Assembly: GCF_000183135.1 (NCBI RefSeq) | Contig: NC_014734.1 | Coordinates: 744,001 to 808,000 of the forward strand | From: Paludibacter propionicigenes WB4 | GTDB lineage: Bacteria; Bacteroidota; Bacteroidia; Bacteroidales; Paludibacteraceae | DNA length: 64,000 bases | Direction: 5' to 3' | Shown here: in pieces, positions 4,076 through 59,456 of the stretch | Numbering within the stretch: position 1 is the first letter of the stretch | Layout: each line of letters opens with the position of its first letter | The notes under the pieces: generated by a model | Databases searched by the model: none | What the model was told of the DNA's origin: nothing | Seen by the model: only the letters and a program-made list of their open reading frames with translations | Program-made: the position numbers and the translations under genes

Positions 4076-4813
4076 TTAAGCCGTAGGAGGAGTACTCTTG
4101 CTTTCGTCCTTGCCTTTGCTACGACGAGCGTTGATGGTATTTTTATAATAATCTATCTGATAGTTCACCTTGTCGATAAACGAACTGTATAGATCTTCGC
4201 CATTGAGCAGAACCAAGGCATTGATAACACTGACAATGTTTTTGTAGTCTCCATCGGTGGCAACTCGTGCTGCCCGTACATCGCCACTGATGCGCGATGC
4301 TACTTCGGCAGTGCGTGTACCAAAGTTGGCAATAAATGAATTATTGGCATCAACCAGTTTATTCAACTTATCGGTAGCCGAGCATAAGGCTACATCAGAT
4401 GCATAATTGTTTCTCATCTGGTTAGTCAAACTGGCTAAGGTTTCGCTTTCTTTGTTGTATGGTTCCCGACGCATATCGCCAATCTGATCGACGATGCGGA
4501 TAATACGTTCGGCAGCAGCCTGAATGGCAGGATCGTAATCGATAAGACCCGACCGAATTTGCAATACAAACGACCGATAAAGTTGATCCCGAAGCAAATC
4601 TGCTTTGCCTATCCCTATGGTGTGCTGGCTGCCTTGCTCCACCTCGATAGAAGCCAGTTCGGTAGTCACATCAGCCACATAGGACGGAAAGAACTTCATT
4701 ATTCCCAGTCTGTTTGGATCTTGAGCCGATATTTCATCTCTTATTACCGAATGAAACTGACCATGTTCGTTGTTTTGGAAATCAGAGAAATCCACTGTTT
4801 TAATTTTCTTCAT
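4076..4813 (-). CDS. DUF6261 family protein (function unknown)
   Basis: I recognise the 245-residue product as the Bacteroidales DUF6261 family by its start (FSDFQNNEHGQFHSVI) and by LLRDQLYRSFVLQIRSGLIDYDPAIQAAAERI. The protein appears almost entirely helical and has no signal peptide or membrane segment. Its C-terminal tail is charged (RRSKGKDESKSTPPTA). No function is established. It is a monocistronic minus-strand unit with its own terminator. A palindrome array (4926-5128) lies between it and a candidate promoter about 455 bases upstream, so the array may be part of a long 5' leader. Confidence 0.8.
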   Translation of the reverse strand: MKKIKTVDFSDFQNNEHGQFHSVIRDEISAQDPNRLGIMKFFPSYVADVTTELASIEVEQGSQHTIGIGKADLLRDQLYRSFVLQIRSGLIDYDPAIQAAAERIIRIVDQIGDMRREPYNKESETLASLTNQMRNNYASDVALCSATDKLNKLVDANNSFIANFGTRTAEVASRISGDVRAARVATDGDYKNIVSVINALVLLNGEDLYSSFIDKVNYQIDYYKNTINARRSKGKDESKSTPPTA

Positions 4814-4854
4814 AGATTCATTTATTTTTAATTTACAATTAGGGTTAGCAGGAT

Positions 4855-4882
4855 AGTTACGAGTTACGAGTTACGAATTACA
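4855..4882. repeat. heptamer microsatellite, (AGTTACG) x4
   Basis: Three perfect AGTTACG units and one degenerate unit lie 42 bases upstream of the DUF6261 start codon. The same heptamer in the opposite orientation recurs at 40256-40283 upstream of mtnN. Confidence 0.8.
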
Positions 4883-4925
4883 AGTCAGTTGGCGTATTCA
4901 CGCAGTGCAGAAAGGCGGGAACACA

Positions 4926-5128
4926 TCCGGCGTGCCGGAAGTAACGTTGCAAAACTGCGGCAAGGTTTCAGGCGTGCCGTATGTCTTGTCGCAAAACTGC
5001 GGGACTCTTTCGGGGACACCGGAAGCACTGTTGTAAAACTGCAGCAGGGTTTAAGGTGTGCCGGACACTCTATTACAAAACTACTGCAAGCTTTCAGGCG
5101 TGCCGGAAGTGTTCCTGCAGTTTTGCAG
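4926..5128. repeat. phased palindrome array A (42-bp unit, palindrome centres every 21 bp)
   Basis: Five copies of a 42-bp unit run without indels. Each unit holds two short palindromes. One is GC-rich, best seen as TCCGGCGTGCCGGA at 4926-4939; the other is GCAAAACTGC at 4949-4958. Centres fall at 4932.5, 4953.5, 4974.5 and so on to 5121.5, always 21 bp apart. The last site (5117-5126, GCAGTTTTGC) is the exact reverse complement of the second type and stays in phase. The plus strand happens to be open across the array (14-residue repeats), but I see no reason to call it a protein. Confidence 0.85.
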
Positions 5129-5267
5129 CACCAAAAAAGGCATTGTTTATCTACCCAAAAGCCTCTCCGAAATGCTCAAAACATTGATAAAACCTGTAAA
5201 AATAGCTTTCTCCAAAACTATTTAATGCGTTGTATATAAGTTCACTTAGCCTCTAAAGTTAACTATG

Positions 5268-5275
5268 CAAATATA
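5268..5275 (-). promoter_or_regulatory. candidate -7 box upstream of array A
   Basis: TATATTTG on the minus strand fits TAnnTTTG. I see no clear -33 TTTG. If used, transcription would run through array A into the DUF6261 gene with a leader of about 450 bases. Confidence 0.35.
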
Positions 5276-5458
5276 TAAGTTTAAATATATGCATGTATGC
5301 TTATTATAGTTTATTTTTATTAATTAAAATCCATTAACAGGTATCGCTTTATTGATGGTAGAGACATGCGGCGAACTGTCCAAAAAATGAATAGGATAAT
5401 AAATTGTTTAGTTTGGGGAAATGGGAGGGATGGAGTCTTGCGAAACAGCGGGCAAAGA

Positions 5459-5531
5459 GGGAATAATTTGGGTCTCGCGATTTCTAATCGCGGAAATTGA
5501 AATATAAACATGCGCGATTGAAATTATTCCC
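5459..5531. repeat. long stem-loop with inner hairpin
   Basis: GGGAATAATTT at 5459-5469 is the exact reverse complement of AAATTATTCCC at 5521-5531. Inside lies a small GCGATT-tct-AATCGC hairpin, a motif that returns as TTGCGATTTTTAATCGCAA near 47.7 kb. From 5276 to 5591 I see no gene besides this structure. Confidence 0.6.
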
Positions 5532-5591
5532 TTTGGTCATGACCGCTGGTTCGCGTGACCCGGTTGTGGAGTTTCTTCAATGTTTATTTAC

Positions 5592-5734
5592 CCGCCCCAA
5601 ACCCCGTTCGACTGAGCTCACGCCGAAGCCTAAAGGGGCTTAAAGTTACTTTTGACTCCTAAAATGTGGTACGCACAACCAGTATAAATCTCGCATACCA
5701 CTCTTTAAGTCCCCTTCAGGGGATTTAGGGGCGG
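5592..5734. repeat. palindromic repeat element E1 (with 23-bp nested insert)
   Basis: The element is bounded by CCGCCCCAAACCCC and its complement TTTAGGGGCGG, each end also holding CCCCTAAAGGGG-like hairpins. The core reads GTGGTACGCACAACC, then AGTATAAATC and CACTCTTTAAG. A 23-bp filler (5606-5628, starting GTTCGACTGAGCTC) interrupts the left arm. It is followed by a 52-base spacer and element E2, an arrangement repeated at 7940-8225. Confidence 0.8.
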
Positions 5735-5786
5735 AAAAATACAGTTTGTCTGAGAGATTCACTGGATAGCTATTTCAACATTTCAA

Positions 5787-5932
5787 CCACCCCAAACCCC
5801 TAAAGGGGCTTGAAGTTACTTTCGACTCCTAAATACGGTATACACAAACGAGTATAAACCCCGCAAACCACTCTTTAAGTCCCCTTTAGGGGAACCAACG
5901 GTCAGCGACCAACGGGAGATAATTAGGGGCGG
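5787..5932. repeat. palindromic repeat element E2 (with ACCAACGG insert)
   Basis: This is the same element as E1, without the left-arm filler. Its right arm is interrupted at about 5893-5922 by a filler containing AACCAACGGTCAGCG and a second ACCAACGG. It ends 14 bases from the stop codon of the DUF559 gene. Confidence 0.8.
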
Positions 5933-5945
5933 ATAATTGGCTAAC

Positions 5946-6317
5946 TTATTTACTCAAATACTCTTTGATCTCTTCAACAACTTTGTCTATATCATTCAGG
6001 ACTTCTTCATTTGTAAAGCGAATAACGGTAATACCAAACCGTTCTAATTCTGCCGTCCGGCCTTCATCATATTCTTTTTGCGATAAATGTATTTCACCAT
6101 CAACTTCAACCACCAGTTTATATTTATGACAATAAAAATCGACAATGAAAATGTCTATCGGATGCTGTGCTTTAAACCGAACGCCTAACTGACTTTTATT
6201 CAATCGCTCCCAAAGGACATTTTCAGCCGCTGTCATGTCTTTAAGCAATTCACAGGCATTTTGAAATATAGCCCGCTTTGCACCAAAAAACATATCTGGT
6301 AAATCTGTACGTTGCAT
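5946..6317 (-). CDS. DUF559 domain protein (Vsr-like PD-(D/E)XK endonuclease fold)
   Basis: The 123-residue protein consists almost wholly of a DUF559 domain: ATPAE-like TAAENVLWERLN, then VRFKAQHPIDIFIVDFYCHKYKLVVEVDGEIH and RFTNEEVLNDIDKV. The Asp of VDFYC and the Glu/Asp of VEVDG are the expected nuclease residues. The start is the ATG giving MQRTDLP, because the only longer reading begins at a TTG. Solo DUF559 genes are common and of unknown role, perhaps DNA repair or mobile-element related. It is bracketed by elements E2 and E3 and transcribed with the two unknown genes upstream. Confidence 0.85.
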   Translation of the reverse strand: MQRTDLPDMFFGAKRAIFQNACELLKDMTAAENVLWERLNKSQLGVRFKAQHPIDIFIVDFYCHKYKLVVEVDGEIHLSQKEYDEGRTAELERFGITVIRFTNEEVLNDIDKVVEEIKEYLSK

Positions 6318-6351
6318 AGTATATTCTCTTTGGTTTTTCAATCATTCCTAA

Positions 6352-6496
6352 CCGCCCCAAACCCCTAAAGGGGCTTTAAGTTACTTTCGACTCCTAAAAT
6401 GTGGTACGCACAACCAGTATAAATCTCGCATACCACTCTTTAAGTCCCCTTCAGGGGAACCAACGGTCAGCGACCAACGGGAGATAATTAGGGGCA
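6352..6496. repeat. palindromic repeat element E3 (with ACCAACGG insert)
   Basis: This single copy between two minus-strand genes has an intact left arm (CCGCCCCAAACCCCTAAAGG). Its right arm is interrupted at 6458-6489 by the same filler, at the same point, as in E2. Confidence 0.8.
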
Positions 6497-6523
6497 GATG
6501 AAGCTATTTATTAGTTTCATTGC

Positions 6524-7204
6524 TTATTTCTTAGGAATTGCTTGTTTCTCGATAGACTGTATGATTTGATTAAGCTGCTTATTCTCAATTTTGGTATCAG
6601 TACATGTTGTAAAAAGAGTTGAAACTAAGGAAAGAACTAAGGCAGCCAACGAAGCGTATAATGCTCCACGCGAATAGTTGGTTTGCTTTTTAGCTTCATT
6701 CAATTGTATCTCAAATTTGCGCTGTTCTGGTGTTTTGAAATCTTTGAGAACTAAATCTATAAGAAGGTAAGAAGGATGAATTAATTTTTTTGAACGTTCT
6801 TCAATCTCTTTACCTATATCTGTGTGAATCATTAGATATTCATTAACATGTACTCCGTCACTACTAAGTATATTTTTGGTGATATAGTAATCACCATGTT
6901 TTACAAATTTGCTAGCACAAATAAAATTAGAATTTGTCCCTTTTTTTAAATGAGAATAAATGTACCTGCTCTCTTCTAGATATTTCAATAAGAAAATAAT
7001 ATCAAGTACTTTTGCATATGATTTATCGTTTTCAACTCCATAAAATTTTACAAACGTATAGGTATTATCCCACTCGATGGCAGCAATGTTTACTTTTTCC
7101 ATCTCATCAATAATAATATTTACTGAAGAGGCAATTTGCCCTTTGTTAGAATCCGAAACAATTCGTTTGATAATATCTTTTTCAAACTCGCTAAAATCTC
7201 TCAT
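6524..7204 (-). CDS. hypothetical protein with C-terminal membrane segment
   Basis: I do not recognise this 226-residue protein. The N-terminal 170 residues look globular and mixed alpha/beta (VNIAAIEWDNTYTFVKFYG, HGDYYITKNILSSDG). A charged helix (RKFEIQLNEAKKQTN) leads into one hydrophobic stretch near residues 180-200 (GALYASLAALVLSLVSTLF) and a short polar tail. This suggests a tail-anchored inner-membrane protein facing the cytoplasm. The start is the ATG at 7204, since the longer reading needs a TTG. It is AT-rich and lies in the repeat-bounded module with the DUF559 nuclease. Confidence 0.7.
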   Translation of the reverse strand: MRDFSEFEKDIIKRIVSDSNKGQIASSVNIIIDEMEKVNIAAIEWDNTYTFVKFYGVENDKSYAKVLDIIFLLKYLEESRYIYSHLKKGTNSNFICASKFVKHGDYYITKNILSSDGVHVNEYLMIHTDIGKEIEERSKKLIHPSYLLIDLVLKDFKTPEQRKFEIQLNEAKKQTNYSRGALYASLAALVLSLVSTLFTTCTDTKIENKQLNQIIQSIEKQAIPKK

Positions 7205-7303
7205 AAATAACAATATATTTAAAATTTAGAAACATTAATTCAATCATACTTTTGCAATCCTATTACCATGATGAAGCAGACTTGAGAGCCGTGATATTCT
7301 TTA

Positions 7304-7879
7304 TTATTCAACTTGTAGTGTTGGTGATTTTTCTTCATTTAGCCACATGTTTTCACGCCAATCAGAAACAATATTAATCAAATCATTGAAGTCCCACAAT
7401 TCAGATAAAAGGCTTAACCCTTCGAAAACTGGTGAACATGAGCCAACTATATGAGAGTATATTTCATTTTGCTCATCATATATTTCCTTGTATGCAATTT
7501 TTAAGTCATTTAATGGTTTAATTGTATTAGAACGTAATTTTGATGGCGAATCCCGATGCTTGTAATAATTGGCTATCGCTATAATTAATTCAATCCTTGT
7601 AGTTTGAGAATTGTTTACTTTTTTGTCAATAGAATATTTATCTGACAGTTTCAATAAATCCGGATATAAATCCGATATACTACTATTGATGTAGTTTTGA
7701 AGTACAATAAATACTGTTCCCACTAAATGCTCTGTATCATCAGCATAAATACTATCCCAATAAATGTAACCATCCTTCGAGCAAATCTCCTTTATATTGT
7801 CTAATTTGACTTGTAATGGTGAAATAATATCTTTTGTTACCCTAATTCTCAAATCTCTTCGTAAATAATGTCCTTTCAT
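7304..7879 (-). CDS. hypothetical protein, helical, possibly HEPN-like
   Basis: The 191-residue product is helix-rich without membrane or signal segments. The stretch IELIIAIANYYKHRDSPSKLR loosely recalls HEPN or abortive-infection helical proteins, but I cannot confirm an RxxxxH site, so this is only a suggestion. It lies upstream of the membrane-anchored unknown gene (99-base gap) in the same orientation, and its 5' side abuts element pair E4/E5. Confidence 0.65.
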   Translation of the reverse strand: MKGHYLRRDLRIRVTKDIISPLQVKLDNIKEICSKDGYIYWDSIYADDTEHLVGTVFIVLQNYINSSISDLYPDLLKLSDKYSIDKKVNNSQTTRIELIIAIANYYKHRDSPSKLRSNTIKPLNDLKIAYKEIYDEQNEIYSHIVGSCSPVFEGLSLLSELWDFNDLINIVSDWRENMWLNEEKSPTLQVE

Positions 7880-7939
7880 ATAATTAGATTAAAATTATTC
7901 TACAACCTAATGCATTGTTTTCTAATTCTATTTTCTTAT

Positions 7940-8056
7940 CCGCCCCAAACCCCTAAAGGGGCTTTAAGTTACTTTCGACTCCTAAAAAAGGTACGCACAA
8001 CCAGTATAAATCTCGCAAACCACTCTTTAAGTCCCCTTCAGGGGATTTAGGGGCGG
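7940..8056. repeat. palindromic repeat element E4
   Basis: This is the cleanest uninterrupted copy of the element, CCGCCCCAAACCCCTAAAGG at the left and TTTAGGGGCGG at the right. It is followed by nearly the same 50-base spacer (ACAGTTTGTCTGAGAGATTC and on) as after E1, then by E5. The rest of 7880-8445 holds no gene I can support. Confidence 0.85.
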
Positions 8057-8107
8057 ATAATACAGTTTGTCTGAGAGATTCACTGGATAGCTATTTCAAC
8101 ATTTCAA

Positions 8108-8225
8108 CCGCCCCAAACCCCTAAAGGGGCTTGAAGCTACTTTCGACTCCTAAAAAGCGGTACGCATAACGAGTATAAATCCCGCATACCACTCTTTAAG
8201 TCCCCTTTAGGAGATTTAGGGGCGG
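8108..8225. repeat. palindromic repeat element E5
   Basis: This partner of E4 has the same arms, with right arm GGAGATTTAGGGGCGG. E4-spacer-E5 duplicates the E1-spacer-E2 arrangement, minus the nested fillers, 2.3 kb away. Confidence 0.85.
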
Positions 8226-8326
8226 TTAGGAAATAAAGAAACATCTAATTTTCACCTACAAATATAATTAATTCTTCTTACAATTAACTGAAACTACTCG
8301 CGTACTACAGAAATAGATTATTTCCG

Positions 8327-8334
8327 TACCTTTG
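8327..8334 (+). promoter_or_regulatory. candidate -7 box for ygiQ
   Basis: TACCTTTG matches TAnnTTTG and lies 111 bases before the chosen ATG. I see no clear -33 element. Confidence 0.4.
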
Positions 8335-8445
8335 TACCATCACAAACAAATCAGTATTCTGTCGGCATAAAAGCGACAAACCGCTCGAAGCGGTTGTTCG
8401 CTTTTGAACCAAAAGCCTACAGAAGTGTTTTTTACAGAAAACTTT

Positions 8446-10272
8446 ATGCAAACCAAAATATATCAACTCACCGATTTTCTTCCTACTACCAAAAAAGAAC
8501 TGGAACTTCGCGGTTGGAACGAAGTAGACGTGATCCTTTTCAGTGGCGATGCGTATATCGACCATCCTGCTTTCGGGGCGGCTGTTATCGGGCGCTTACT
8601 CGAAGCACAGGGACTACAGGTGGCCATTGTGCCTCAGCCTAACTGGCGCGACGACCTGCGCGATTTCAAAAAGATGGGGCGTCCACGCATGTTTTTTGCC
8701 ATTTCAGCGGGCAATATGGATTCCATGGTAAACCATTACACGGCCAACAAACGCCTGCGGTCTGACGACGCGTACACCCCTGATGGAAAATCGGGTATGC
8801 GTCCTGATTATTGCACCATTACCTATGCCACTATTATCAAAAAATTATATCCGGAAGTGCCCCTTGTCATCGGTGGAATCGAAGCTTCGCTGCGCCGCTA
8901 CACACATTACGATTATTGGTCGGATAAACTTATGCCAAGCATTTTGGTCGATTCCAAGGCAGATTTGCTCATTTATGGGATGGGAGAGAAGCCTATAGTG
9001 GAACTGATAAAACAGATTCGCGAAGGTAAAACCTTCAAAGAGATGACAAACATACCACAAACCTCGTTTTTATCGAAGGAAATTCCGGCTCATCCGAAAT
9101 GGAAAAACCTGGAACTGGTTTCGCACGAGGTTTGCCTGAAAGATAAAAAGTTATATGCTTCCAACTTCAAGCATATCGAAAAAGAATCGAATAAATACGA
9201 GGCCAACCGGTTGTTGCAAAAAACGGGCAACCGCTGGGTGATAGTCAACCCACCCTACGAACCGCTGAAAGAGGCCGAACTGGATGCTTCGTACGATTTG
9301 CCCTACACACGCGTGCCGCACCCCAAATACAAGGGCAAGACCATTCCGGCCTACGAAATGATTAAGTTCTCGGTAAACATGCATCGCGGATGCTTTGGCG
9401 GCTGCTCGTTTTGTACCATTTCGGCTCATCAGGGCAAGCATATTGTGTCGCGTTCCAAAGAATCGATACTGAATGAGGTGAAAAAGATTACCGCTATGCC
9501 CGATTTCAAGGGCTATCTGAGCGATTTGGGCGGTCCATCGGCCAATATGTACAAGATGAAAGGGAAGAACCTGTATATCTGCCGGCAATGTCAAAAACCG
9601 TCCTGCATTTTCCCGAAACCCTGCTTTAATCTGAATACCGATCATACACCTTTGCTGGATATTTACCGCTCGGTCGATCAGTTGCCGGGTATCAAAAAGT
9701 CATTTATCGGCAGCGGTGTGCGTTACGACATTTTGCTGACCGACCCTAAAAATGTGGAAGTAAACAAAAGCCACGAGGAATATATCCGCGAACTGATTAC
9801 CAACCACGTTTCCGGACGGTTGAAGATTGCTCCCGAGCATACGTCGGACGCGGTGCTAAACCTGATGCGTAAACCCAGCTTTGCCTATTTTGGCGAGTTT
9901 AAAAAGAAATTTGAGCGAATCAACCGAGAGGCAGGACTAAATCAACAGCTGATTCCCTACTTTATCTCGAGTCACCCGGGTTGCCACAACGAAGATATGG
10001 CCGAACTGGCAGCGCTGACCAAAAGCTTCGATTTTAAGTTGGAACAGGTGCAGGATTTTACTCCTACACCCATGACACTGGCTACCGAAATTTATTATTC
10101 TGGCTATCATCCTTACACATTGGAACCGATTTTTACCGCTAAAAGCAAAGATGAAAAGTTGGAGCAACGTAAATTCTTTTTCTGGTATAAGGGAGAATAT
10201 AAGAATCAAATCATCAAAGATTTGAACCGAATGAAACGCCCGGATTTACTAAAGAAACTGTTTCAGAAATAA
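8446..10272 (+). CDS. YgiQ family radical SAM protein
   Basis: The 608-residue protein begins with the UPF0313/YgiQ N-terminal domain (FLPTTKKELELRGW, SGDAYIDHPAFGAA, cobalamin-binding-like VIGGIEASLRRYTHYDYW). The radical-SAM cluster motif is CFGGCSFC (Cys316, 320, 324-323 region), followed by GKHIVSRS. A further cysteine group (CRQCQKPSCIFPKPC) and the family-typical TPTPMTLATEIYYSGYHPYT come later. The substrate is unknown. The ATG at 8446 is used, because the longer frame opens with a TTG. It is convergent with the DUF4130 gene across a palindromic intergenic region. Confidence 0.92.
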   Translation: MQTKIYQLTDFLPTTKKELELRGWNEVDVILFSGDAYIDHPAFGAAVIGRLLEAQGLQVAIVPQPNWRDDLRDFKKMGRPRMFFAISAGNMDSMVNHYTANKRLRSDDAYTPDGKSGMRPDYCTITYATIIKKLYPEVPLVIGGIEASLRRYTHYDYWSDKLMPSILVDSKADLLIYGMGEKPIVELIKQIREGKTFKEMTNIPQTSFLSKEIPAHPKWKNLELVSHEVCLKDKKLYASNFKHIEKESNKYEANRLLQKTGNRWVIVNPPYEPLKEAELDASYDLPYTRVPHPKYKGKTIPAYEMIKFSVNMHRGCFGGCSFCTISAHQGKHIVSRSKESILNEVKKITAMPDFKGYLSDLGGPSANMYKMKGKNLYICRQCQKPSCIFPKPCFNLNTDHTPLLDIYRSVDQLPGIKKSFIGSGVRYDILLTDPKNVEVNKSHEEYIRELITNHVSGRLKIAPEHTSDAVLNLMRKPSFAYFGEFKKKFERINREAGLNQQLIPYFISSHPGCHNEDMAELAALTKSFDFKLEQVQDFTPTPMTLATEIYYSGYHPYTLEPIFTAKSKDEKLEQRKFFFWYKGEYKNQIIKDLNRMKRPDLLKKLFQK

Positions 10273-10284
10273 AATTCTCGAATT

Positions 10285-26222: not shown

Positions 26223-27293
26223 TTATTTTATTCTGTCAAGAAATCGAGTGAATTTAAATAATTCAAATTCGTTATATTTCTCAGTTTCTTTATACGTTGA
26301 GTTGAAAATAATATTTCCTATCTTTTTTGCAATTTGAGTCTTTAATTTATTTTTTTCTGTATCAATATCAAATTTTTCTTTCAAAATGGTATTTATAGAT
26401 TTATTCTTGGGAAGTTTAATGAGATCATCGAGTGAGTTGTCTTTTAAATAACCCAACTCTTGTAAAATGTGAAACAGAATTTCTATAGGAATGGATGATT
26501 CAAAGTCATATTTAAATTGAAAAATATTCTTTTTAGAAATAGTACCTTTATCTACGTAGTATTTAAATTTGTCATATCCTGAACCATCGCCATCCCCATC
26601 TTCATCTCCTTGAATATAAATAGAATATCCTTTTGTTTGATAATCTTCAATCAACATTTCAATTCTTTTTGGTAATTTATTCCCTTTTCCATTATAACTT
26701 TCAACTATAAACGTAAAGCTATTTGATAATATATCATCTCCTCCTAAATACTCAATAAATTTTAATTCACTTTTGCCTTCAACTAATAAAAGACTTTGTC
26801 CATTGTATAATTCCGAAAACATCTTGAAATCTTTTCCAAATTTATTTAAAACATCTCTAAGAGAAAGTATCTCAGTTAAAAGCGAAATTGAATACTTCCC
26901 CAAATATTCAAGTTTGTCATCGTTAATGAATAATCCATTAAGTTGCTCACTTAAATAAATGTACTTAAAAAAATAAAATGCACTGTCTACGTAATTTTGT
27001 TGCTTTTGTTTGTTTGCATTATTTAAAACATGAAAAGTTCTCAGTATGTAATTCTCTAATGCTTTTTTAGCTACTCCACACTGTATATCTTGTTTATAAT
27101 AATTATCACCAAAATACGGAATTGCAAATTTGCAATAATCTCCCTTTCCGCATTTATGACATTCGTAATAAGGTATCCATCTTTTTGTGAATTCTCTTGC
27201 CAATTCAATGGGCGAGTATAACCCTTCAAATTTTATTTTTGATGATCCATTAATTTCAAATATTTCAATATTTTTAAATTCAATTAAATCCAT
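26223..27293 (-). CDS. TOPRIM-domain protein with N-terminal cysteine cluster (putative nuclease)
   Basis: The 356-residue AT-rich protein has three elements matching the OLD-type TOPRIM fold: LLLVEGKSELKF (Glu172, Glu176), YNGKGN at 200-205 and an acidic GDEDGDGDG at 229-237 in the position of the DxD metal site. Four cysteines near the N-terminus (C45, C48, C54, C72 in CHKCGKGDYC and IQCGV) could bind zinc. I see no ATPase domain and no adjacent ATPase gene, unlike classical OLD proteins. Imperfect inverted repeats flank it (26208-26222 and 27313-27327). A defence or mobile-element role is plausible but unproven. Confidence 0.65.
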   Translation of the reverse strand: MDLIEFKNIEIFEINGSSKIKFEGLYSPIELAREFTKRWIPYYECHKCGKGDYCKFAIPYFGDNYYKQDIQCGVAKKALENYILRTFHVLNNANKQKQQNYVDSAFYFFKYIYLSEQLNGLFINDDKLEYLGKYSISLLTEILSLRDVLNKFGKDFKMFSELYNGQSLLLVEGKSELKFIEYLGGDDILSNSFTFIVESYNGKGNKLPKRIEMLIEDYQTKGYSIYIQGDEDGDGDGSGYDKFKYYVDKGTISKKNIFQFKYDFESSIPIEILFHILQELGYLKDNSLDDLIKLPKNKSINTILKEKFDIDTEKNKLKTQIAKKIGNIIFNSTYKETEKYNEFELFKFTRFLDRIK

Positions 27294-27554: not shown

Positions 27555-27972
27555 ATGGTGTAAGAGCTTTTATCAGGTGGTGCACGAGGTATTATCATAT
27601 GGTGTAAGAGGTATTATCATATAGTGCACGAGGTATTATCAGGTGGTGTACGAGGTCTTATCATGTGGTGTAAGAGGTATTATCAGGTGGTGCACGAGGT
27701 CTTATCAGGTGGTGTGAGAGGTCTTATACGATGGTGTAATAGCTCTTGTACGGTACTGTCAGAGCTCTTATACGGTACTGTCAGAGGTCTTATACGGTGG
27801 GGTAATAGCTCTTGTACGGTACTCTCAGAGGTCTTATACGGTGGTGCAATAGCTCTTATACGGTGGTGTCAGAGGTCTTATACGATGGTGTAAAAGGTAT
27901 TGTACGGTACTCTCAGAGGTCTTATACGGTAGTGCAATAGCTCTTATACGATGGTGTAAGAGCTATTGTCCG
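27555..27972. repeat. phased palindrome array B (19 units of exactly 22 bp)
   Basis: Nineteen units run from 27555 to 27972 with no insertion or deletion. Unit starts read GTGGTGTAAG, GTGGTGCACG, GTACTGTCAG or variants, and the core is TAAGAGGTCTTA or AGAGCTCT, a palindrome centred at base 12.5 of each unit. The first seven units end in TATCAT or TATCAG, the rest mostly in TATACG or TGTACG. Units at 27819 and 27907 are identical. A twentieth unit would begin ATGCTAG, which contains the rlmN stop codon, so the array abuts rlmN without a gap. Confidence 0.9.
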
Positions 27973-27975: not shown

Positions 27976-29028
27976 CTAGAAATCGGTTTCGGTTTGTTTC
28001 TTTATCAGTTCTTTGGTAGAGAGCATACCACAGGCTGCAAATATATCTTCGCCGCGCGACGCTCTGATGGTAACAGTAAGTCCTTTGGCTTTCAGTCGGT
28101 TTTGAAAGTCTACAATATCTTCGAGGGCTGTGCCTTCCAACGGTGTGTCGGGGATGGGATGGAAGCGGATAAGGTTGATGCGGCATTTTATACCGTTCAG
28201 CAGGCGTACCAGCTCGTTGGCATGGCGGGGCGTATCGTTTACTCCTTTAAACATAATGTATTCGAACGACACACGGCGTTGGCTACCCAGCTCCCAGCGA
28301 CGTATATTGCTCACAACTTCGGTAATGGGATACACGCTTTGAATGGGCATAATGTCGCGGCGCTCGTCGTCGAACGGTGAGTGCAGGCTCACGGCCAGAT
28401 GGGCTTTGCTGTTTTCCAGAAAAGTCATCATGGCGGGTATAATGCCTATGGTGGACACCGTTATGCGTTTCGGGCTCCAGTCGTAACCCCAGGGCGAAGT
28501 CATCACCTCTATGCTGTCCATCACCGCCTGTACATTGTCCAGCGGTTCGCCCATGCCCATATACACTATATTGGTGAGCTTATCGAACTCGGGCAACGAT
28601 TGCATCTGGTTCAGAATTTCGCCCGTCGTCAGGTTGCCCTGAAAGCCCTGCTTGCCCGTCATGCAAAACAGGCAACCCATCTTGCATCCTATCTGGGTGG
28701 AGACACACAGCGTGGCACGGTCCTTATCGGGTATGTAGGCGGCTTCTATAAACTTCTGTGGGCGGGTTGGATAGAGGTACTTTTTGGTACCATCGGTTGA
28801 AGTCTGCACACTTACGGACGGCACCAGATGCAGACTGTATGCCTGTTGTAGTTTTTCGCGCGCCTGTTTGGACAGGTTGGTCATAGAGCCTATATCGGTT
28901 ACACGCTTTTTGTACATCCAGTCGGCCAACTGCGATGCCGTAAAAGCCGGCAACCCCAACGCCAGCACTTCCGCTTTCAACTGCGGCAACGTAAGTCCGA
29001 ATAGATTTTTAGGCAAATGAGTTTCCAT
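27976..29028 (-). CDS. rlmN: dual-specificity RNA methyltransferase RlmN
   Basis: RlmN is a radical SAM enzyme that methylates C2 of A2503 in 23S rRNA and A37 in some tRNAs. The 350-residue protein has the cluster motif CKMGCLFC (Cys115, 119, 122), the preceding TLCVSTQIG, and the catalytic cysteine region RASRGEDIFAACGMLS near the C-terminus. GMGEPLDN and VSLHSPFDDERRDIMP are also typical. Its stop codon is the first codon next to array B, so any readthrough transcript would carry the array as its 3' UTR. Confidence 0.96.
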   Translation of the reverse strand: METHLPKNLFGLTLPQLKAEVLALGLPAFTASQLADWMYKKRVTDIGSMTNLSKQAREKLQQAYSLHLVPSVSVQTSTDGTKKYLYPTRPQKFIEAAYIPDKDRATLCVSTQIGCKMGCLFCMTGKQGFQGNLTTGEILNQMQSLPEFDKLTNIVYMGMGEPLDNVQAVMDSIEVMTSPWGYDWSPKRITVSTIGIIPAMMTFLENSKAHLAVSLHSPFDDERRDIMPIQSVYPITEVVSNIRRWELGSQRRVSFEYIMFKGVNDTPRHANELVRLLNGIKCRINLIRFHPIPDTPLEGTALEDIVDFQNRLKAKGLTVTIRASRGEDIFAACGMLSTKELIKKQTETDF

Positions 29029-48704: not shown

Positions 48705-49208
48705 TCAGAGTATCTGTCTTTGGCTCAACGAGGGTTCTTTTAAACTGTCTTCATTCCATCTTGTCGGATTATCCGTTATGTAATTATATATAGAATCATA
48801 GCTATCGGCATCTCTGACAATATGATCATGAAATGAACGTTGCCATTCAAAGTTCATATTACCAAGCAAATGAATTTGTTTGGACGATGTAGTTTTAAGC
48901 GCACCCATTAATTGCGAAACCGATTTTATTTTCATATCCTTACCTGAAACATTTTGAGGATTTATTTCAAATAATAAATGAATGTGATTTGGCATTACCT
49001 GCGAATTATGTATTTCAATAAATGGATATTGATTTTCCAACCAATTGATTTGTTCCTCCACAATTTTTCCAAATACGTTCAATTCCATTGTATCATTGAC
49101 AATTCTTCCCAGATGATGTATCCGATACCTGCAACAAATCGTAATGAAATAAATGTTATTTGATGTATAATCAAATCCCTTTTTTCTATTTCGTTTGCGG
49201 TTTTTCAT
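48705..49208 (-). CDS. REP-associated tyrosine transposase (RAYT, IS200-like Y1 fold)
   Basis: The 167-residue protein has the HUH motif in VMPNHIHLLF (His75, His77) and the catalytic tyrosine region DSIYNYITDNPTRW near 137-151, typical of RAYTs. These act in cis or trans on short palindromic REP sequences. A pair of GGACAGGTC-type palindromes lies just upstream (49296-49427). The last codons, PSLSQRQIL, overlap a copy of the CCTCGTTGAGC motif found at other gene ends here. Confidence 0.9.
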   Translation of the reverse strand: MKNRKRNRKKGFDYTSNNIYFITICCRYRIHHLGRIVNDTMELNVFGKIVEEQINWLENQYPFIEIHNSQVMPNHIHLLFEINPQNVSGKDMKIKSVSQLMGALKTTSSKQIHLLGNMNFEWQRSFHDHIVRDADSYDSIYNYITDNPTRWNEDSLKEPSLSQRQIL

Positions 49209-49295
49209 TACGCATCCAATTTATAATTGTTGGACAAATATTTTGTGACGTGACAATGTTTTTATATCATTGGACAGGTTAACCGTTATATCATT

Positions 49296-49427
49296 GGACA
49301 GGTCACGACCTGTCCCTACAAACCCACATCAAATGATTGAATCCTATTTATTTTATTGCACCTTTGAAAATATTATTAATTCTATTATTTCCACAAACCT
49401 CATGTAGGGATAGGTCGTGACCTGTCC
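49296..49427. repeat. REP pair (BIME-like), copy next to the RAYT gene
   Basis: GGACAGGTCACGACCTGTCC (49296-49315) and GGATAGGTCGTGACCTGTCC (49408-49427) are each near-perfect palindromes. With the adjoining CTAC and GTAG they form inverted ends of a 132-bp element. A second copy with a matching interior is at 60687-60819. A half motif (TTGCGACCTGTC) is also visible near 3901. Confidence 0.8.
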
Positions 49428-49452
49428 GATTACAAAAAACATGTTTTATTTA

Positions 49453-53857: not shown

Positions 53858-53932
53858 TGGTTCATTTTTTGTTTATATAGCCATTGTATACATTTAAAAC
53901 AAGACTCTGCCTTGTAAATCTTATCATGTAAT

Positions 53933-54095: not shown

Positions 54096-57000
54096 ATAAA
54101 TTAATTTTCTCGTATTCTTCTCTGTCAAGTCTATCAATGAATTCAACAAGTTTGTTTAATTCTCTTTCTGCAGAATACCACCAGTTTGTTGACCAAATTC
54201 TATAAAATATAAAGCCGTAAGGCTTTATAACACTTTCTCTGAAAATATCCCAAGCATAGGCTTCATTGCTACTGTGATATTCTGCTCCATCACATTCAAT
54301 CGCAATAATTGGTTTTAGCGCTATTTTCGATTTTATCACTAAGTCAATTCTAAAACCACCAATTTTATATTGTTGCTGAATTCTATTTTCGCCAATTTTT
54401 GCAGCTAAGCGATTAAATACTTCTTCCTCAAATGGAGATTCAGAGCCTAAATTATACTCATTATCATACTGTCTTGATTCACAATTGTCATACAATAGTT
54501 TTAAAATTTCCTTCTGTACTTCAATATTGTTTTCACTTATTGCTTTTGAATACGCCAAATAAGCATAAAACACAGCTCGCCCAGTATTTTTGTTTTCTCT
54601 TAATAGTGTTGGATATTCGTTTATTCTTTCTTCTGGGATAGAAGTACATACAAACATTTTGAGTTTGGCTCTTGTAATAATAACATTTAAAAGTTTGAAG
54701 CCATTTTGTTGTAAAATTGGTCCAAATAGTTGTCTGAAACTACCATCTTTTCTTTTGCCAAAAGTTGTAGAGAGAATAATAATATCTCGCTCATCACCTT
54801 GAATATTTTCAAGATTTTTCACAAAAAAATCAGAGCCATACAATGAAAGTTTCTTATCAATTGCAGGATCTTGACGAGCTTTTGTAATTTCTTCAAGAAT
54901 AAGATTTCGTTGATACAAATTGAATGTTGCAACACCAACAGAAGGATATTTACCATTAGCCAGAGGCTTAATTCTATTCAATAAAATATCAATTACTTGT
55001 TTTGCCTCGTCAAGATTTACTGAATCCTCATATAAACCTGCTACTTGAATATACTCGATAGATTTATATTCTTGCTTTGCAGGCATTGGGATGAGTCGTT
55101 TGCCGTAAAAAGCATGATTTGAGAATTCAATTAAGTTAGGGTGTTGGGAACGATAGTGAATCTTCAAAAATGAAGCTTCATAATTGCAATTTTCCGCATA
55201 AACTAATAATGATTCGCTATCAGCTAAATCTATGCTATGTTTAATCTTTGCATTTTCTGAGTGAAAATTTGTTTCGTCTTCGTTATCCTCGTCAGTTGGT
55301 GCTAAAATTGCATTCCCGCCTTGGAAGAAGTTAGAAGGTGGCATTTGTTGACTATCACCCGAAATAATTTTAATTTTACCTCTGAGCAAAGCAGGAAATG
55401 TATCTTCAATTCTTAACTGACTAGCTTCATCAAAAATAACGACATCAAAAAGTCCCTCTTTTAATGGAATTATCGAACCACAAACACTTGGACTAATAAG
55501 CAATACTGGATAGAAACTTGTAAATAAGTTGAAATCAGTTCGTATAATTTTACGTAATGAATTACGCTTTTCGCCTCTTGCACCTCTCTTATTAAATAAA
55601 CTAATCATGTTTACTCCATTGTTTTGAGCATTTCTTACTGCACAATATTGTTTTTCAGACCAATCATTTACAATGTTCTTTTTTTGTACAATTCTTAAAT
55701 CATTCTTATGATCAACAATTTCATTAAGTTTATCTTCATTTTTAGGTAAATCTTTGTGTTCATTAATTGACAGCAGCCAGTAAAAATACCAAGTTTCAAA
55801 CTGAACAATCCAATTAGTGCTATTGATTTCAATTAATGACTTAATAACAATTCTCTGCAAATCAGTCAGTTCAAGGAAAAATTTTCTCCATTCGTAATAT
55901 TCCCTAAATTCCTTTATGTGTTGATTGACAATATCAAATGAAGAAATAACTTGATTTAATGAGCTAATACGTTCATTATGTGTGTTACTTTTGGAAGGTT
56001 CATTTTCAAAAATATCTGCATCACTTATATTTGTAATTAACGCATCAAAACGATTCTCGACAACCTTAATATGTGATTCAAATTCAACATATTTTGAATG
56101 TAAATTGCTTGAACTAAAACTATTCAAATAATCTGTTTTGATATTTTCAATTTGGTTGTACCAAGCAATTGTTGAATCTTTTAAATGCTCAATATCTTCT
56201 ATTCCAGATTTAAAATTTTCTTCTTTTTCAATTTCAATAAAATTGTGATCAAAATAGCTGTATGTCTGTTTTACTGCTTTAATCTTACCAATATTTTCTA
56301 TTAAAAGTATTCTATTGTTTTTGATACTTTTATGTTTTTTGGAAACAATACTTAAAATGTTGATTAATGCTTTTGTGAATGAGTCATTTTTTAAGAAGAT
56401 TTCACCGTATTGGTTTTCTGCGTTTGAAACGAATGAACTAAAGATTTCGATTTCGGAAATTAATGATTTAAAGTATTCGTAATAATGATTATCAAGCCAG
56501 TTCTTGTAATTGTCAAGGTTTGTACTTAATTCTGTTTTGATTTCTTCTAATCTATTGGGATATTGTAAAAAACTCTCCTCTAATTTCAATTGAACTGCCC
56601 TTGAACTTTCATCATTAAACAGTTTGTCACTTAGAATATTTAATGGGTGATTTAGCTCTTTTACTTCTAAGAATAGTTTTTGAGCAGTCTTAATTTTTCC
56701 AATAAACTCAAACAGTTCATTTTCATCTTCTTGGAACTTAAACTGTTTATAATCTAATTTGTATTTTAATTCGCCTATTTCTACATTACTTTCGTATTTT
56801 AGAAACTCTCCAACTAGATTAGTCCATTTTTTACCGTGAAAAATTTTCCTGTCAAGTTGTTTGTGTTGGTTGTTATACGCTCCAACCTTGCTTTCAAGGT
56901 TTTGTATCAAAAAATCATAATTTGCTGTATTAAAGTTATTATAAGAAGAAAGATTACTGTGCCTGTCGCGAACTGAATTAACAATACCATCTCTATCTTT

Positions 57001-58167
57001 ATTAATGTCTTCAATTACTGCGGCAAGTGCTCCGATTTGTTCGCTTTCTTTTTCAAGATTATGTTTAATGATATCTAATGCTGTTTTCTTTTCGCACACC
57101 ACAAGACATTTTAAATTGTTTGCTAAAGCATTTGTAATAAGCGCTGTTAATGTTTGACTTTTCCCAGTTCCGGGAGGACCTTGTATTATTTTGCGTGGTT
57201 TCGAGTTGAGGGTTGATAAAATTCCTTGTTGGCTTGGGTCAGTTTGCACTGCACTGTGTGCAGTTCCTGGAAATTGTTCAACAATTAGTTTGTCAAACTG
57301 AAAGTCCGAATAATTTTCAATAATTCTATCTATATCACCAATTATACTTTCTTTTTGAGCTCTAAATAAACCAAAAATACCACCAAAGTAAATCCAAGGC
57401 AAATTACTCGAAGCTGACTCAATTGAAGCAGATTCGGGAATGTTTTTAATTGGTTCATTCAGTTTTTCAATTAATTCATTTTTGAATTCTTGGTTTGTAT
57501 TTGGGTTTAGTGCTTTTATTATTTTATAGCATTCATCAATTAATTCAGTCTTATCAATAATTGCATCTTCCAAGAGTTCTTCATTGATTTGAGGGATTAA
57601 TATATTTTCGTCAGTTTTCAAATACGATAAAAGTACTTCGTTTAAGCCAACTGAATGTATTTCTTCATCTACAATTCTTCCATTTGAATTACGAACTTTG
57701 TTTCTTAGAATTGACCAAGTATTTACTTTATTTGTTGCTTTTACTATTTCTAGTTGCCAAATAAATATAGGAGCCTTTATAATTTTTCTTGGGTCTTGTT
57801 TTGAAGGTTTCACCAACAAAGGATAACCAAAACTAAACGTTTTAATTCCATGTTCTTTGTAATTGTCATCGTTCTCATAATTTAGCGAATTCAGTCGTTT
57901 CGAAAGAATACTCAATTTTTTCTGTTCTTCAGATGAAGTTTTACTAAGATTTATGCTGTCAAATGATATATTAAATTCAAAACAAGCTTTTGTAAATAAT
58001 AACTTTAAGAATTCATTAGCAAATTCAGGTTTAATAATGTTCAGGTTAGACAAATCTAATCTTGTTGCATAACGTCCAGGCAAAGCATTCAAATGTATTG
58101 ATTTGGTATTTCCTCCTTTGAGTTTGTCTCGTAATGCTTGTATGAAATTTATGTCTATCATAATCAT
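54085..58167 (-). CDS. large SF1 helicase with C-terminal Vsr/DUF559-like nuclease, putative single-gene defence system
   Basis: The 1360-residue AT-rich protein has a unique N-terminal 300 residues, then a superfamily 1 helicase split by a long coiled insert: Walker A IIQGPPGTGKSQTL (330-337), Walker B VVIFDEASQL near 912, GDSQQMPPSNFF, HYRSQHPNLIEFSNHAFY, then NIQGDERDIIILSTTFG and LNVIITRAKLKMFV. The last 110 residues are a PD-(D/E)XK nuclease (SPFEEEVFNRLA, FRIDLVI, AIECDGAEYHSS). This order matches DUF4011-type helicase-nucleases, some of which are reported antiphage genes. A second ATG (MIDINF) is two codons in. Its last codons come from repeat M. Confidence 0.88.
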   Translation of the reverse strand: MIMIDINFIQALRDKLKGGNTKSIHLNALPGRYATRLDLSNLNIIKPEFANEFLKLLFTKACFEFNISFDSINLSKTSSEEQKKLSILSKRLNSLNYENDDNYKEHGIKTFSFGYPLLVKPSKQDPRKIIKAPIFIWQLEIVKATNKVNTWSILRNKVRNSNGRIVDEEIHSVGLNEVLLSYLKTDENILIPQINEELLEDAIIDKTELIDECYKIIKALNPNTNQEFKNELIEKLNEPIKNIPESASIESASSNLPWIYFGGIFGLFRAQKESIIGDIDRIIENYSDFQFDKLIVEQFPGTAHSAVQTDPSQQGILSTLNSKPRKIIQGPPGTGKSQTLTALITNALANNLKCLVVCEKKTALDIIKHNLEKESEQIGALAAVIEDINKDRDGIVNSVRDRHSNLSSYNNFNTANYDFLIQNLESKVGAYNNQHKQLDRKIFHGKKWTNLVGEFLKYESNVEIGELKYKLDYKQFKFQEDENELFEFIGKIKTAQKLFLEVKELNHPLNILSDKLFNDESSRAVQLKLEESFLQYPNRLEEIKTELSTNLDNYKNWLDNHYYEYFKSLISEIEIFSSFVSNAENQYGEIFLKNDSFTKALINILSIVSKKHKSIKNNRILLIENIGKIKAVKQTYSYFDHNFIEIEKEENFKSGIEDIEHLKDSTIAWYNQIENIKTDYLNSFSSSNLHSKYVEFESHIKVVENRFDALITNISDADIFENEPSKSNTHNERISSLNQVISSFDIVNQHIKEFREYYEWRKFFLELTDLQRIVIKSLIEINSTNWIVQFETWYFYWLLSINEHKDLPKNEDKLNEIVDHKNDLRIVQKKNIVNDWSEKQYCAVRNAQNNGVNMISLFNKRGARGEKRNSLRKIIRTDFNLFTSFYPVLLISPSVCGSIIPLKEGLFDVVIFDEASQLRIEDTFPALLRGKIKIISGDSQQMPPSNFFQGGNAILAPTDEDNEDETNFHSENAKIKHSIDLADSESLLVYAENCNYEASFLKIHYRSQHPNLIEFSNHAFYGKRLIPMPAKQEYKSIEYIQVAGLYEDSVNLDEAKQVIDILLNRIKPLANGKYPSVGVATFNLYQRNLILEEITKARQDPAIDKKLSLYGSDFFVKNLENIQGDERDIIILSTTFGKRKDGSFRQLFGPILQQNGFKLLNVIITRAKLKMFVCTSIPEERINEYPTLLRENKNTGRAVFYAYLAYSKAISENNIEVQKEILKLLYDNCESRQYDNEYNLGSESPFEEEVFNRLAAKIGENRIQQQYKIGGFRIDLVIKSKIALKPIIAIECDGAEYHSSNEAYAWDIFRESVIKPYGFIFYRIWSTNWWYSAERELNKLVEFIDRLDREEYEKINLSPR

Positions 58168-58469
58168 GCTTTTTTAGTCCTACTTTGCGAGAATCTTCTG
58201 TCTTATTACACTTACCTCTAACATCTCTGTATATTACGACACCGTCGCACTTATTTCTCTATTAAGCTGGTTTTTTCCACCTTATCCCTTGTCATTAATC
58301 TTCACAGCCCCAAAAATACAAAAAAAACTTTCTGCTTAACACAATTAGCAGAAAAAGTTTTAAACAAGTTGTAATTTTGCAGAAATTATCAAAACTAAAA
58401 ACCGCTCTGATGCAGTGTCAGAACGGTTTTGCTGTAGGGTAGGGGTGCGGTGGGTGTAAAAGCTTGATG
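58168..58469. promoter_or_regulatory. intergenic region: helicase promoter candidate and two hairpins
   Basis: TATTTTTG on the minus strand (58311-58318) is a -7 candidate for the helicase gene, with a leader of about 140 bases. AACTTTCTGC and GCAGAAAAAGTT (58328-58360) form an imperfect hairpin. AAAACCGCTCTGA/TCAGAACGGTTTT (58397-58430) is a strong terminator for the minus-strand fibronectin gene. Confidence 0.5.
58395..58430 (-). terminator. terminator of the fibronectin-III protein gene
   Basis: A stem of about 13 bp (one mismatch) with a 7-base loop is followed on the minus strand by TTTTTAGTTTTG. It lies 40 bases after the stop of the 58470 gene. Confidence 0.8.
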
Positions 58470-59096
58470 TTACATTACATAGCTGATAATGGCATCGCTC
58501 CATACGCGTCCGGGGTCTGAACCGGCACCGGCTACCGCTATAGAATATGCCTGTCCACGTATCAGGTCATCAATTATCATTTTATGTTTGGTAGTTGAAA
58601 GGCGTTGGCGCACGCTTTTATCGGTCACAGGAGATTCAATAATCTCAAGTTCATACAAACGTGCATTCGGTACCACGTCCCACGATATTTCCAAACTTCC
58701 ACGTCTTGGGCCGGGATTAGCTACCACATTTGCCGGACGCTCCAGCAAGCCCACCGGAGCAGGTTTACGTTTCACTTCGAAGCCCGCATCGAGTATCAGT
58801 TTCTCGTCGCCATTACTGATATCCTGCACTTTGACGGCTGCCGTGCTTAATAATCCTTCTAAAAGAGCTCTCGACTGATTTTTGGAGAGCGTAACCTGTT
58901 TGTTACCATCGCGCATCTGTATTAACCACGTTCCGAAATCAGCTGCCTGAATTCTGATGTTGTTGGCTATTTCAGTCATACCCTGAAACTGCGGAGTGTG
59001 CAGTAAATTTTCTCCGATAGTTTCTGCTGTGTTTTTCAATTCCAAATCCGAATAGCGATTAGCTGAAAAATCGACAATTACTTTTGCTTTTGCCAT
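58470..59096 (-). CDS. small fibronectin type III domain protein
   Basis: The 208-residue protein has a helical N-terminal half (AKAKVIVDFSANRYSDLELKNTAETIGENLL) and a single fibronectin-III domain from about residue 118 (RPANVVANPGPRRGSLEISWDVVPNARLYELEIIE, then LIRGQAYSIAVAGAGSDPGRVWSD). It has no signal peptide. Proteins of this layout are a recurrent, uncharacterised Bacteroidales family. Like the DUF6261 gene at 4 kb it is a monocistronic unit with its own terminator and a phased palindrome array upstream (59226-59456). Confidence 0.85.
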   Translation of the reverse strand: MAKAKVIVDFSANRYSDLELKNTAETIGENLLHTPQFQGMTEIANNIRIQAADFGTWLIQMRDGNKQVTLSKNQSRALLEGLLSTAAVKVQDISNGDEKLILDAGFEVKRKPAPVGLLERPANVVANPGPRRGSLEISWDVVPNARLYELEIIESPVTDKSVRQRLSTTKHKMIIDDLIRGQAYSIAVAGAGSDPGRVWSDAIISYVM

Positions 59097-59225
59097 AGTT
59101 TTTTTGATTTTAAGTGAGTATTATTATTAAGAAAACTGTTGATGCTTTATTATCTATTGTTTTACTGATGGTTACAATACATTATCAATCCATCTGCACA
59201 GGCACTTACCGGGCTTTATTGTATT

Positions 59226-59456
59226 TTTCCTTGTAATGAATGCTCTATTCATTGTAAGGAATACCTTATTAATGATAAGTAATACCTTGTTCCTTGTAAG
59301 GAATGCACTATTCATTATAAGGAATGCTCCATTACTTGTAAGGATTAGCTTATTAATTATAAGGATTGCTCTATTACTTGTAAGGAATAGCTTATTAATG
59401 ATAAGTAATACTCCATTCATTGTAAGGAATGCTCCATTACTTATAAGGAAAATGCC
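59226..59456. repeat. phased palindrome array C (11 units of exactly 21 bp)
   Basis: Eleven units start at 59226 and every 21 bases after, without indels. The consensus core is ATTCCTTGTAAGGAAT, an inverted repeat centred between G and T, followed by a 5-base spacer such as GCTCT, ACCTT or GCTCC. The array ends at 59456. The nearest gene is the fibronectin-III gene, whose ATG is 130 bases away. Both strands are open across it (7-residue repeats), which is expected for a 21-bp period and is not evidence of coding. Confidence 0.9.

Follow-up and report, generated by a model that had tools for sequence, protein, structure and literature searches.

Plasmid replication iterons are phased direct repeats of 21-22 bp that lie beside the gene of their cognate initiator. 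Here we report on tandem arrays of helically phased DNA units that lie beside small protein genes of the DUF6261 and FnIII families, in a 64,000-bp stretch of the Paludibacter propionicigenes WB4 chromosome (the window; G000:C1:744001-808000 of the 3,685,504-bp complete genome) and in related genomes. Unlike iterons, these arrays are chromosomal and present in many copies, and no Rep family was matched among the partner proteins searched. An earlier reading of the window, made from its letters alone (the sequence-only reading), had stated that no described system of this form was known, and we found none that fits.

Several published systems resemble the arrays in part (the accounts given here follow excerpts of the papers cited). 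In type II partition, phased tandem sites at parC are bound by the cognate protein ParR, forming a helical superstructure of symmetric dimers (PMC5016525). A tandem phased array within one locus and upstream of the gene is also present here, whereas there is no motor (ParM-like) gene beside the window's two loci, and we find tens of chromosomal copies, several protein families without detectable similarity and an array that is sometimes downstream. The ribbon-helix-helix fold of ParR was not seen in the monomer models of the partner proteins; such a ribbon forms only in the dimer, which monomer models cannot show. By analogy, the ParR-parC segrosome would be the nearest counterpart in working mode.

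In the type III toxin-antitoxin system ToxIN, tandem repeats that are unique to each cluster lie upstream of one small gene (PMC8860590). Those repeats form RNA pseudoknots, a terminator separates them from the gene, and the toxin is an RNase, while our arrays have no RNA signature, few terminator-like sites between array and gene (6/79 DUF6261 loci; 1.5 expected in a simple consensus scan) and partners of other folds: no ToxN/CptN/TenpN-type RNase was matched in Pfam or PADLOC by the proteins searched, and the DUF6261 model is all-helical. TIGR-Tas arrays consist of alternating repeats with pseudo-two-fold symmetry, up- or downstream of a single gene (PMC12045711), but their units have variable 9-nt spacers and the partner is a Nop-domain protein. 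The Nop family was matched in Pfam at 0.01 by none of 71 DUF6261 members and none was listed in the fold comparisons, nor is there a variable-spacer block, the least conserved 9-column block scoring 0.73 vs 0.74 after permutation (60 arrays). Both type III toxin-antitoxin and TIGR-Tas fail on their defining features.

The nearest repeats that we found in print, as far as the excerpted paper goes, are those of miniature inverted-repeat transposable element (MITE)-like elements of Porphyromonas gingivalis, with tandem repeats of 23 nt (BrickBuilt) and 41 nt (464/PgRS) (PMC4596501). Unit length is similar and the bacterial order the same, but there one sequence is dispersed in copies with terminal inverted repeats, whereas here the units are locus-specific and tied to gene families. 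Combined searches of open-licence PMC papers for tandem repeats in Bacteroidetes/Bacteroidales returned nothing, and for DUF6261 only an apparently unrelated mention.

Linkage of phased arrays to gene families

The linkage of arrays to genes, and their helical spacing, is established and far wider than the sequence-only reading had claimed. The own genome was sampled in 60 stretches of 20 kb at even spacing, which with the window make up 1.26 Mb (about a third of the genome) and contain 27 strong phased arrays with periods of 20-22, 40-44, 63-64, 84-85 or 126 bp; one coding repeat and, because of their overlap with the window, the rows of L053 and L054 are not in this tally. An array was present within 600 bp upstream of 40/846 genes of the 60 stretches, i.e. 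six of seven DUF6261/FnIII genes and 34 of 839 others (Fisher p 5e-8). Without the window's own two genes, four of five DUF6261/FnIII genes have an upstream array, and in a lag control 57 control lags together gave 13 hits and the 19 tested lags 40. The expected enrichment upstream of the two families is borne out by these numbers, and the 34 other genes show that arrays are not exclusive to them.

DUF6261 is present in 18 of the 40 genomes of the own genus and order (own genome included) and in 33/295 genomes of the order, corresponding to 22/178 genera. Among genes with at least 150 bp of upstream sequence, an array precedes 47/62 DUF6261 (L001-L036, L101-L128) and 23/27 FnIII genes. Final counts were restricted to loci with 400 bp or more of flank on each side, the array being sought within 700 bp; the loci were chosen among the best-scoring matches and the linkage fractions are possibly biased upward. 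For DUF6261 (n=96) the array is upstream only in 74, downstream only in 5, on both sides in 2 and absent in 15 (81/96 linked), and for FnIII (n=26) the corresponding numbers are 21, 1, 1 and 3 (23/26 linked). In other genomes the two families thus usually have an array, which strongly favours the earlier claim.

Two further families, F98 and F85, came to notice as neighbours of arrays in the own-genome sample, and their loci in other genomes were examined next. F98 (223 aa, no Pfam family, C-terminus FnIII-like by eye; present in 4/198 genomes) has an upstream array at 8/8 loci. F85 (247 aa, no Pfam family; 24/198 genomes, 19/147 genera) has its array downstream at 16 and upstream at one of 17 loci, none being without (17 downstream and one upstream before the flank filter, n=20). 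A flank below 400 bp excluded 11 DUF6261, 2 FnIII and 3 F85 loci; L142-L144 (large FN3 proteins, or too short) were left out of the final counts, the duplicates L145, L156, L166, L115, L195 and L196 were removed, and L190-L194, from one set of 18 loci, are not in the analysis. No array lies beside L142 and L143, whose large proteins match the FnIII profile through the FN3 domain only. Of the 38 DUF6261 genes in the complete genome G196, 30 were examined, and an array (lag 40-43 or 82-84) lies upstream of 27 of these.

No profile similarity was detected between the DUF6261 and FnIII proteins, in agreement with their earlier designation as unrelated, and common ancestry of these two, the only families compared, was rejected on this ground. 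One architecture with constant spacing is common to families without detectable similarity, as had been suggested from the window. Downstream of the DUF6261 genes, moreover, a terminator-like site was found at 27/77 loci vs 0.9 expected, consistent with single-gene units.

Along the own genome, 19 consecutive sampled stretches (L066-L084, 1.525-2.643 Mb) are without a strong array, while the other 41 have 26. A macrodomain reading of this range was not adopted, because the array of the DUF6261 gene L001 (2.594 Mb, between sampled pieces) lies inside it and because GC skew gives no clear placement of the origin and terminus.

Two observations concern possible further partners. At L052:18090-19010, behind a strong 21/64/85-bp array, a 306-aa protein is encoded whose carboxypeptidase-regulatory-like C-terminus scores just under the Pfam cut-off and which is probably a further array-linked family. 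Isolated frames of 36-63 aa in G152, G175, G137, G196, G108 and G035 match only the strongly conserved C-terminus of F85 and are either gene remnants or separate small proteins.

In the window itself, tandem-repeat scans recovered all three arrays of the sequence-only reading, with units of 42, 22 and 21 bp. The features of its DUF6261 locus (L004), its FnIII locus (L037) and the third array are:

3980..4056, minus strand: inverted repeat past the DUF6261 stop codon, probable terminator (28-nt arms, 86% complementary)
4076..4813, minus strand: DUF6261 gene, 245 aa, predicted all-helical (Pfam PF19775, E 5e-29; AlphaFold pLDDT 92.6)
about 4905..5130, minus strand: 42-bp tandem array of about 5 dyad-symmetric units, upstream of DUF6261 (lag 42 score 52 vs shuffled maximum 13)
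5213-5220 and 5268-5275, minus strand: two candidate Bacteroidetes -7 elements (TAnnTTTG) upstream of the array (consensus match only)
27556..27962, no strand assigned: 22-bp array between rlmN (27976-29028) and the open reading frame (ORF) 26223-27293, not a member of the module (unit common to one other locus)
about 58399..58431, minus strand: hairpin past the FnIII stop codon, probable terminator (direct reading of the sequence)
58470..59096, minus strand: small FnIII gene, 208 aa, helical N-terminus and FN3 domain (one of 4 own-genome matches)
about 59220..59463, minus strand: 21-bp tandem array of about 11 units, upstream of FnIII (lag 21 score 84, lag 42 score 90)

The window DUF6261 gene is one of 11 matches in its genome. 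In the window FnIII protein the FN3 domain is below the Pfam cut-off, yet clear in the AlphaFold model. The array begins 92 bp 5' of the DUF6261 and 123-131 bp 5' of the FnIII gene; the sequence-only reading had given 113-130 bp. The description of both genes as self-terminated fits, since a hairpin comes after each of them. Neighbours of the two loci are GcvT, M20 peptidase, DUF559, AAA/REase, LuxR-type and GH97 genes, and ORF 6524-7213, which has no family.

The 22-bp array is different in that it is neither locus-specific nor spaced at 21 bp, and it is to be dropped from the common architecture in which the sequence-only reading had placed it. It lies 14 bp past the rlmN stop codon, and its palindromic unit, at two or fewer mismatches, has two genome sites only, the window and about 860.7-860.9 kb (L055:6735-6924). 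Both sites lie directly behind genes that are unrelated, rlmN in the window and an AlkZ-like gene at 860.7 kb. The TOPRIM label given to ORF 26223-27293 could not be reproduced either (no Pfam family at 0.001, no NCBIfam match).

Other repeats in the window include two pairs of shared non-coding repeats (D4, D5, D8) at 5587-5907 and 7935-8228, which bracket the ORFs at 5946-7879 and are about 170 bp apart inside a pair and 2.15 kb between pairs. At 48705-49437 a Y1_Tnp (REP-type) transposase ORF is followed by imperfect palindromes GGACAGGTCRCGACCTGTCC 112 bp apart, and a second pair of GGACAGGTCRCGACCTGTCC palindromes, 113 bp apart, is present at 60687-60819.

Spacing, symmetry and sequence of the units

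Among 47 DUF6261 arrays the best lag is 41 bp in 22, 42 in 18, 43 in one and 82-83 in six, and those of FnIII, F98 and F85 arrays are 21, 42, 63 or 84 bp (85 in one FnIII array). Successive units are spaced by exactly 21 bp in 223/233 FnIII, 58/61 F98 and 135/147 F85 cases, and for DUF6261 152 spacings are 41 bp and 151 are 42 bp vs 8 each at 40 and 43 bp; 12-bp spacings (48 cases), an artefact of the low score threshold combined with a 12-bp exclusion, were excluded as units. Mean column conservation among copies is 0.84 for DUF6261 and 0.75-0.77 for FnIII, F98 and F85, which together with the near-constant spacing shows that the copies diverged by substitution and hardly by insertion or deletion (indel).

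This near absence of indels bears on the idea that the arrays adjoin these genes by chance, being minisatellites (selfish or neutral) or pieces of small mobile elements. There is a precedent in the dispersed 23- and 41-nt tandem repeats inside the P. gingivalis MITE-like elements (PMC4596501), and arrays sit beside other genes too. The linkage, however, persists across genera and families of the order, and no 12-mer is common to at least four of 16 own-genome loci (about 3.5 kb each), so there is no sign of common terminal repeats. We consider a chance association of this kind to be very improbable.

A dyad is significant (p<0.05 vs column permutation) in 27/47 DUF6261 arrays, and in 20/47 the dyad ranking second is offset from the first by exactly half a unit (a chance of about 1 in 55 per array). 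The corresponding numbers are 9 and 10 of 22 for FnIII, 2 and 4 of 7 for F98, and 2 and 0 of 16 for F85. In the window, the main dyad of the DUF6261 array has p=0.010 and its half-period dyad ranks only 9 of 57, and for the FnIII array the main dyad has p=0.307 and the half-period dyad ranks 1 of 23. The F85 arrays are without dyads, and symmetry is therefore not universal. Dyad arms are better conserved than the rest of the unit in 58/65 arrays (p 1e-10 vs permuted columns). In 60 DUF6261 arrays conservation is 0.77 at the dyad centre, highest in the arms at 3-7 bp (peak 0.92 at 4 bp), at its minimum of 0.77 at 10-11 bp and rises again to 0.81-0.86 at 14-18 bp, a profile that is operator-like.

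In DUF6261 and F85, conservation also follows one face of the helix. The 10.5-bp spectral power of copy-to-copy conservation is 0.132 vs 0.049 in DUF6261, a value reached by none of 2000 permutations and by no block shuffle, and 0.204 vs 0.100 in F85 (0/2000 permutations; block shuffle p 0.0075). The peaks fall at four cycles per DUF6261 unit and two cycles per F85 unit, i.e. about 10.5 bp.

The unit sequences differ from locus to locus. In G196 the 27 array units have a mean identity of 0.432 vs 0.422 when shuffled (best pair 0.62 vs best shuffle 0.61), and the DUF6261 pairs L004/L015 and L108/L116 have units that by eye are unrelated despite 61-65% protein identity. Part of an arm is kept, again by eye, in L003/L027 (63% protein identity) and L016/L019 (57%), and the closer relatives L009 and L010 have GGATGA/TCATCC dyads in common. 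In a clade of four (L007, L020, L021 and L032; proteins 61-78% identical) TTTCA-N4-TGAAA is shared and the other half of the unit replaced, such that 8/10 arm columns and 4/32 other columns are identical in all four.

Profiles of 14 own-genome units scanned over the 1.26-Mb sample, with only 4 column shuffles each, revealed no family of dispersed target sites. Several of the "outside" hits are edges of the unit's own array, single above-null sites were obtained for L005 (L044:14739) and, barely, for L003, L006, L007, L038 and L164, and one orphan array, L047:6599-6945, contains the L040 unit again. This orphan array, which has no recognised partner gene, resembles the FnIII array at L040/L041; the L063 and L097 arrays are alike by eye.

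These data bear on whether spacing alone matters, i.e. whether phased repeats of any sequence sum small bends into a curved or looped segment, in line with the earlier notion of a mechanism that needs spacing rather than sequence. The freedom of sequence among paralogs combined with strict helical spacing would be expected of such a segment. Curvature, however, needs neither conserved dyad arms nor one conserved face, nor does it need one arm pair to be conserved across the L007/L020/L021/L032 clade. We therefore do not retain the earlier notion, and regard curvature by itself as a rather improbable explanation.

Coding, RNA and extrachromosomal readings

The arrays are non-coding. Heptad-coding repeats, prompted by the multiples of three in FnIII, F98 and F85, were rejected as open frames are no commoner than in column-shuffled copies: none of 67 arrays has fewer stops than its column-shuffled copies at p<=0.05 and none shows codon-phase variability at p<0.05, and the 41-bp units break the reading frame.

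Repeats of about 40 nt, cognate to and upstream of one small gene and in many copies per genome, could function as RNA. In this respect the motif TAnnTTTG, which we take to be the Bacteroidetes -7 element, is of interest. At L004 it occurs at -90 and -145 relative to the array start, with a third copy within the array. In the 300 bp before 79 DUF6261 arrays the motif is commoner on the sense strand, with 36 matches vs 16 (15 vs 6 and 21 vs 10 in the 150-bp halves; p 0.08 and 0.07), and before the first 47 arrays the nearer 150-bp half has 15 vs 2 on the sense strand. Between array and gene the numbers are 8 sense vs 9 (79 arrays). Since the motif is commoner before the array and not between array and gene, many DUF6261 arrays may lie in a transcribed leader. 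Two arrays also gave weak Rfam matches, that of L016 to mir-3910 (29.3 of 95 bits) and that of L038 to STAXI (23.2 of 40.5 bits).

Against a functional RNA, an Rfam search of 13 loci gave no match on an array at the gathering score of the family concerned (RF02914 reaches its own at L001:2906-2941, outside the array). Moreover, mismatched arm pairs have no G·U preference, as judged from 519 transition-type mismatches in the four families, an indirect test of RNA structure (GT 86 vs AC 78 in DUF6261; 105 vs 127 in FnIII, 18 vs 30 in F98 and 41 vs 34 in F85). The F85 arrays are without hairpins, and at F85 loci a terminator-like site precedes the array in 6/16 cases (0.45 expected) and follows it in 0/16. 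The scarcity of terminator-like sites between array and DUF6261 gene, given above, points the same way, and an RNA offers no reason for units of 21 and 41/42 bp. RNA hairpins are hence disfavoured by the missing G·U bias, the repeat RNA of small hairpins considered in the sequence-only reading loses ground, also with the non-palindromic F85 arrays and the six that lie behind a terminator-like site, and RNA function in general appears unlikely. Since the F85 array lies behind its gene, a role tied to one position, such as a plain operator or a leader RNA, does not cover all cases.

An origin from plasmids or phages was considered and rejected. The L001 protein matches DUF6261 in one plasmid record, a 568-kb Prevotella nigrescens replicon, and in two gut phage-labelled contigs; no relative of the window DUF6261 protein was found among viral contigs, and PADLOC gave no match for five proteins. 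On this replicon (NZ_CP082843.1) the DUF6261 locus has an array of 41-bp units at L187:2223-2422, and as the gene is annotated to start inside it (L187:2339), the start codon is probably misannotated.

A proposed protein assembly on the arrays

Whole-turn spacing, one-face conservation, operator-like dyads and locus-specific sequences together point to cooperative assembly of a protein on DNA, and since the period and symmetry of an array vary with the gene family the binder would most simply be the product of the linked gene. We therefore propose, with a probability of about 0.5, that a protein, most likely the one encoded next to the array, assembles cooperatively on it, with the array serving as a DNA scaffold on a single helical face. 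Each locus would be a self-contained module in which one small protein gene has a dedicated array. Its units, from a few to about 25, would be held on one face of the helix by a spacing of two turns (21 bp; FnIII, F98 and F85) or four turns (41/42 bp; DUF6261, often with two alternating dyads). The protein, most likely the adjacent gene's, would assemble on it as a nucleoprotein filament or patch, which for DUF6261 would be two-fold symmetric with alternating inverted half-sites about 10.5 bp apart and for F85 polar. Divergent unit sequences would keep the many paralogs of one genome from cross-reacting, and the complex might, instead of being a simple operator, serve as a local anchor, resemble a centromere or be autoregulatory.

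Several observations weigh against this proposal. Many own-genome arrays have no recognised partner gene, no array was found within 700 bp at 15/96 DUF6261 and 3/26 FnIII loci, and L170 and L173, F85 loci excluded for a short flank, have no downstream array. Half of the DUF6261 units are 41 bp, giving a mean of 10.4 and not 10.5 bp per turn; the dyad is not significant in 20/47 DUF6261 arrays, and reaches p<0.05 in only 2/16 arrays of F85. Helical-face power is absent in F98 (n=6, p 0.8), and in FnIII has p 0.0005 by simple permutation yet 0.11 by block shuffle. Above-null scores were obtained for the L037 unit in the L039 region (FnIII) and for the L162 unit in the L158 array (F98), so "private" units are well documented for DUF6261 only. 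Finally, no DNA-binding fold was recognised, the DUF6261 protein being modelled as a long helical bundle without significant PDB match, and its median net charge is -2.5, i.e. slightly acidic, with only the tail being basic. In the monomer models DUF6261 has no strands and FnIII only a 2-residue bridge before the helices; in both, an extended N-terminal segment is predicted to precede a helix, and as a lead such segments could form a ribbon in the dimer.

In another reading, a general DNA-binding protein or nucleoid factor other than the linked gene's product would bind the arrays, and the linked gene itself would have the role of an effector or a bystander. One array grammar is common to gene families without detectable similarity, some arrays have no recognised partner, and neither modelled protein has a recognised DNA-binding fold (for FnIII, the effective comparison was limited to the FN3 part). 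A single sequence-specific protein, on the other hand, cannot read unrelated unit sequences, and period and symmetry track the gene family (41/42 bp in DUF6261, 21 bp in the others, no dyads in F85). Binding by a general factor therefore seems unlikely to us, and assembly of the linked gene's product is preferred.

Taken further, and more tentatively, Bacteroidales chromosomes may carry a class of protein-plus-DNA-array modules that comprises at least four families without detectable similarity, one of them with no fewer than 38 genes in a single genome, and in which the protein would polymerise on its self-owned, helically phased array into an address-specific filament. Such modules might serve the chromosome as anchors or in the manner of centromeres, or be selfish or defence modules of a new kind. 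The module looks like a so far undescribed kind of protein-plus-DNA scaffold. Its DNA element was found by spacing and not by sequence, and is invisible to similarity searches. The data give a first concrete handle on DUF6261 and three more uncharacterised families, which are multi-copy across an order of abundant bacteria. If the proteins bind the arrays, nature would have supplied dozens of distinct pairs of protein and DNA scaffold, in which the co-evolution of binding specificity and array sequence could be studied as a natural experiment.

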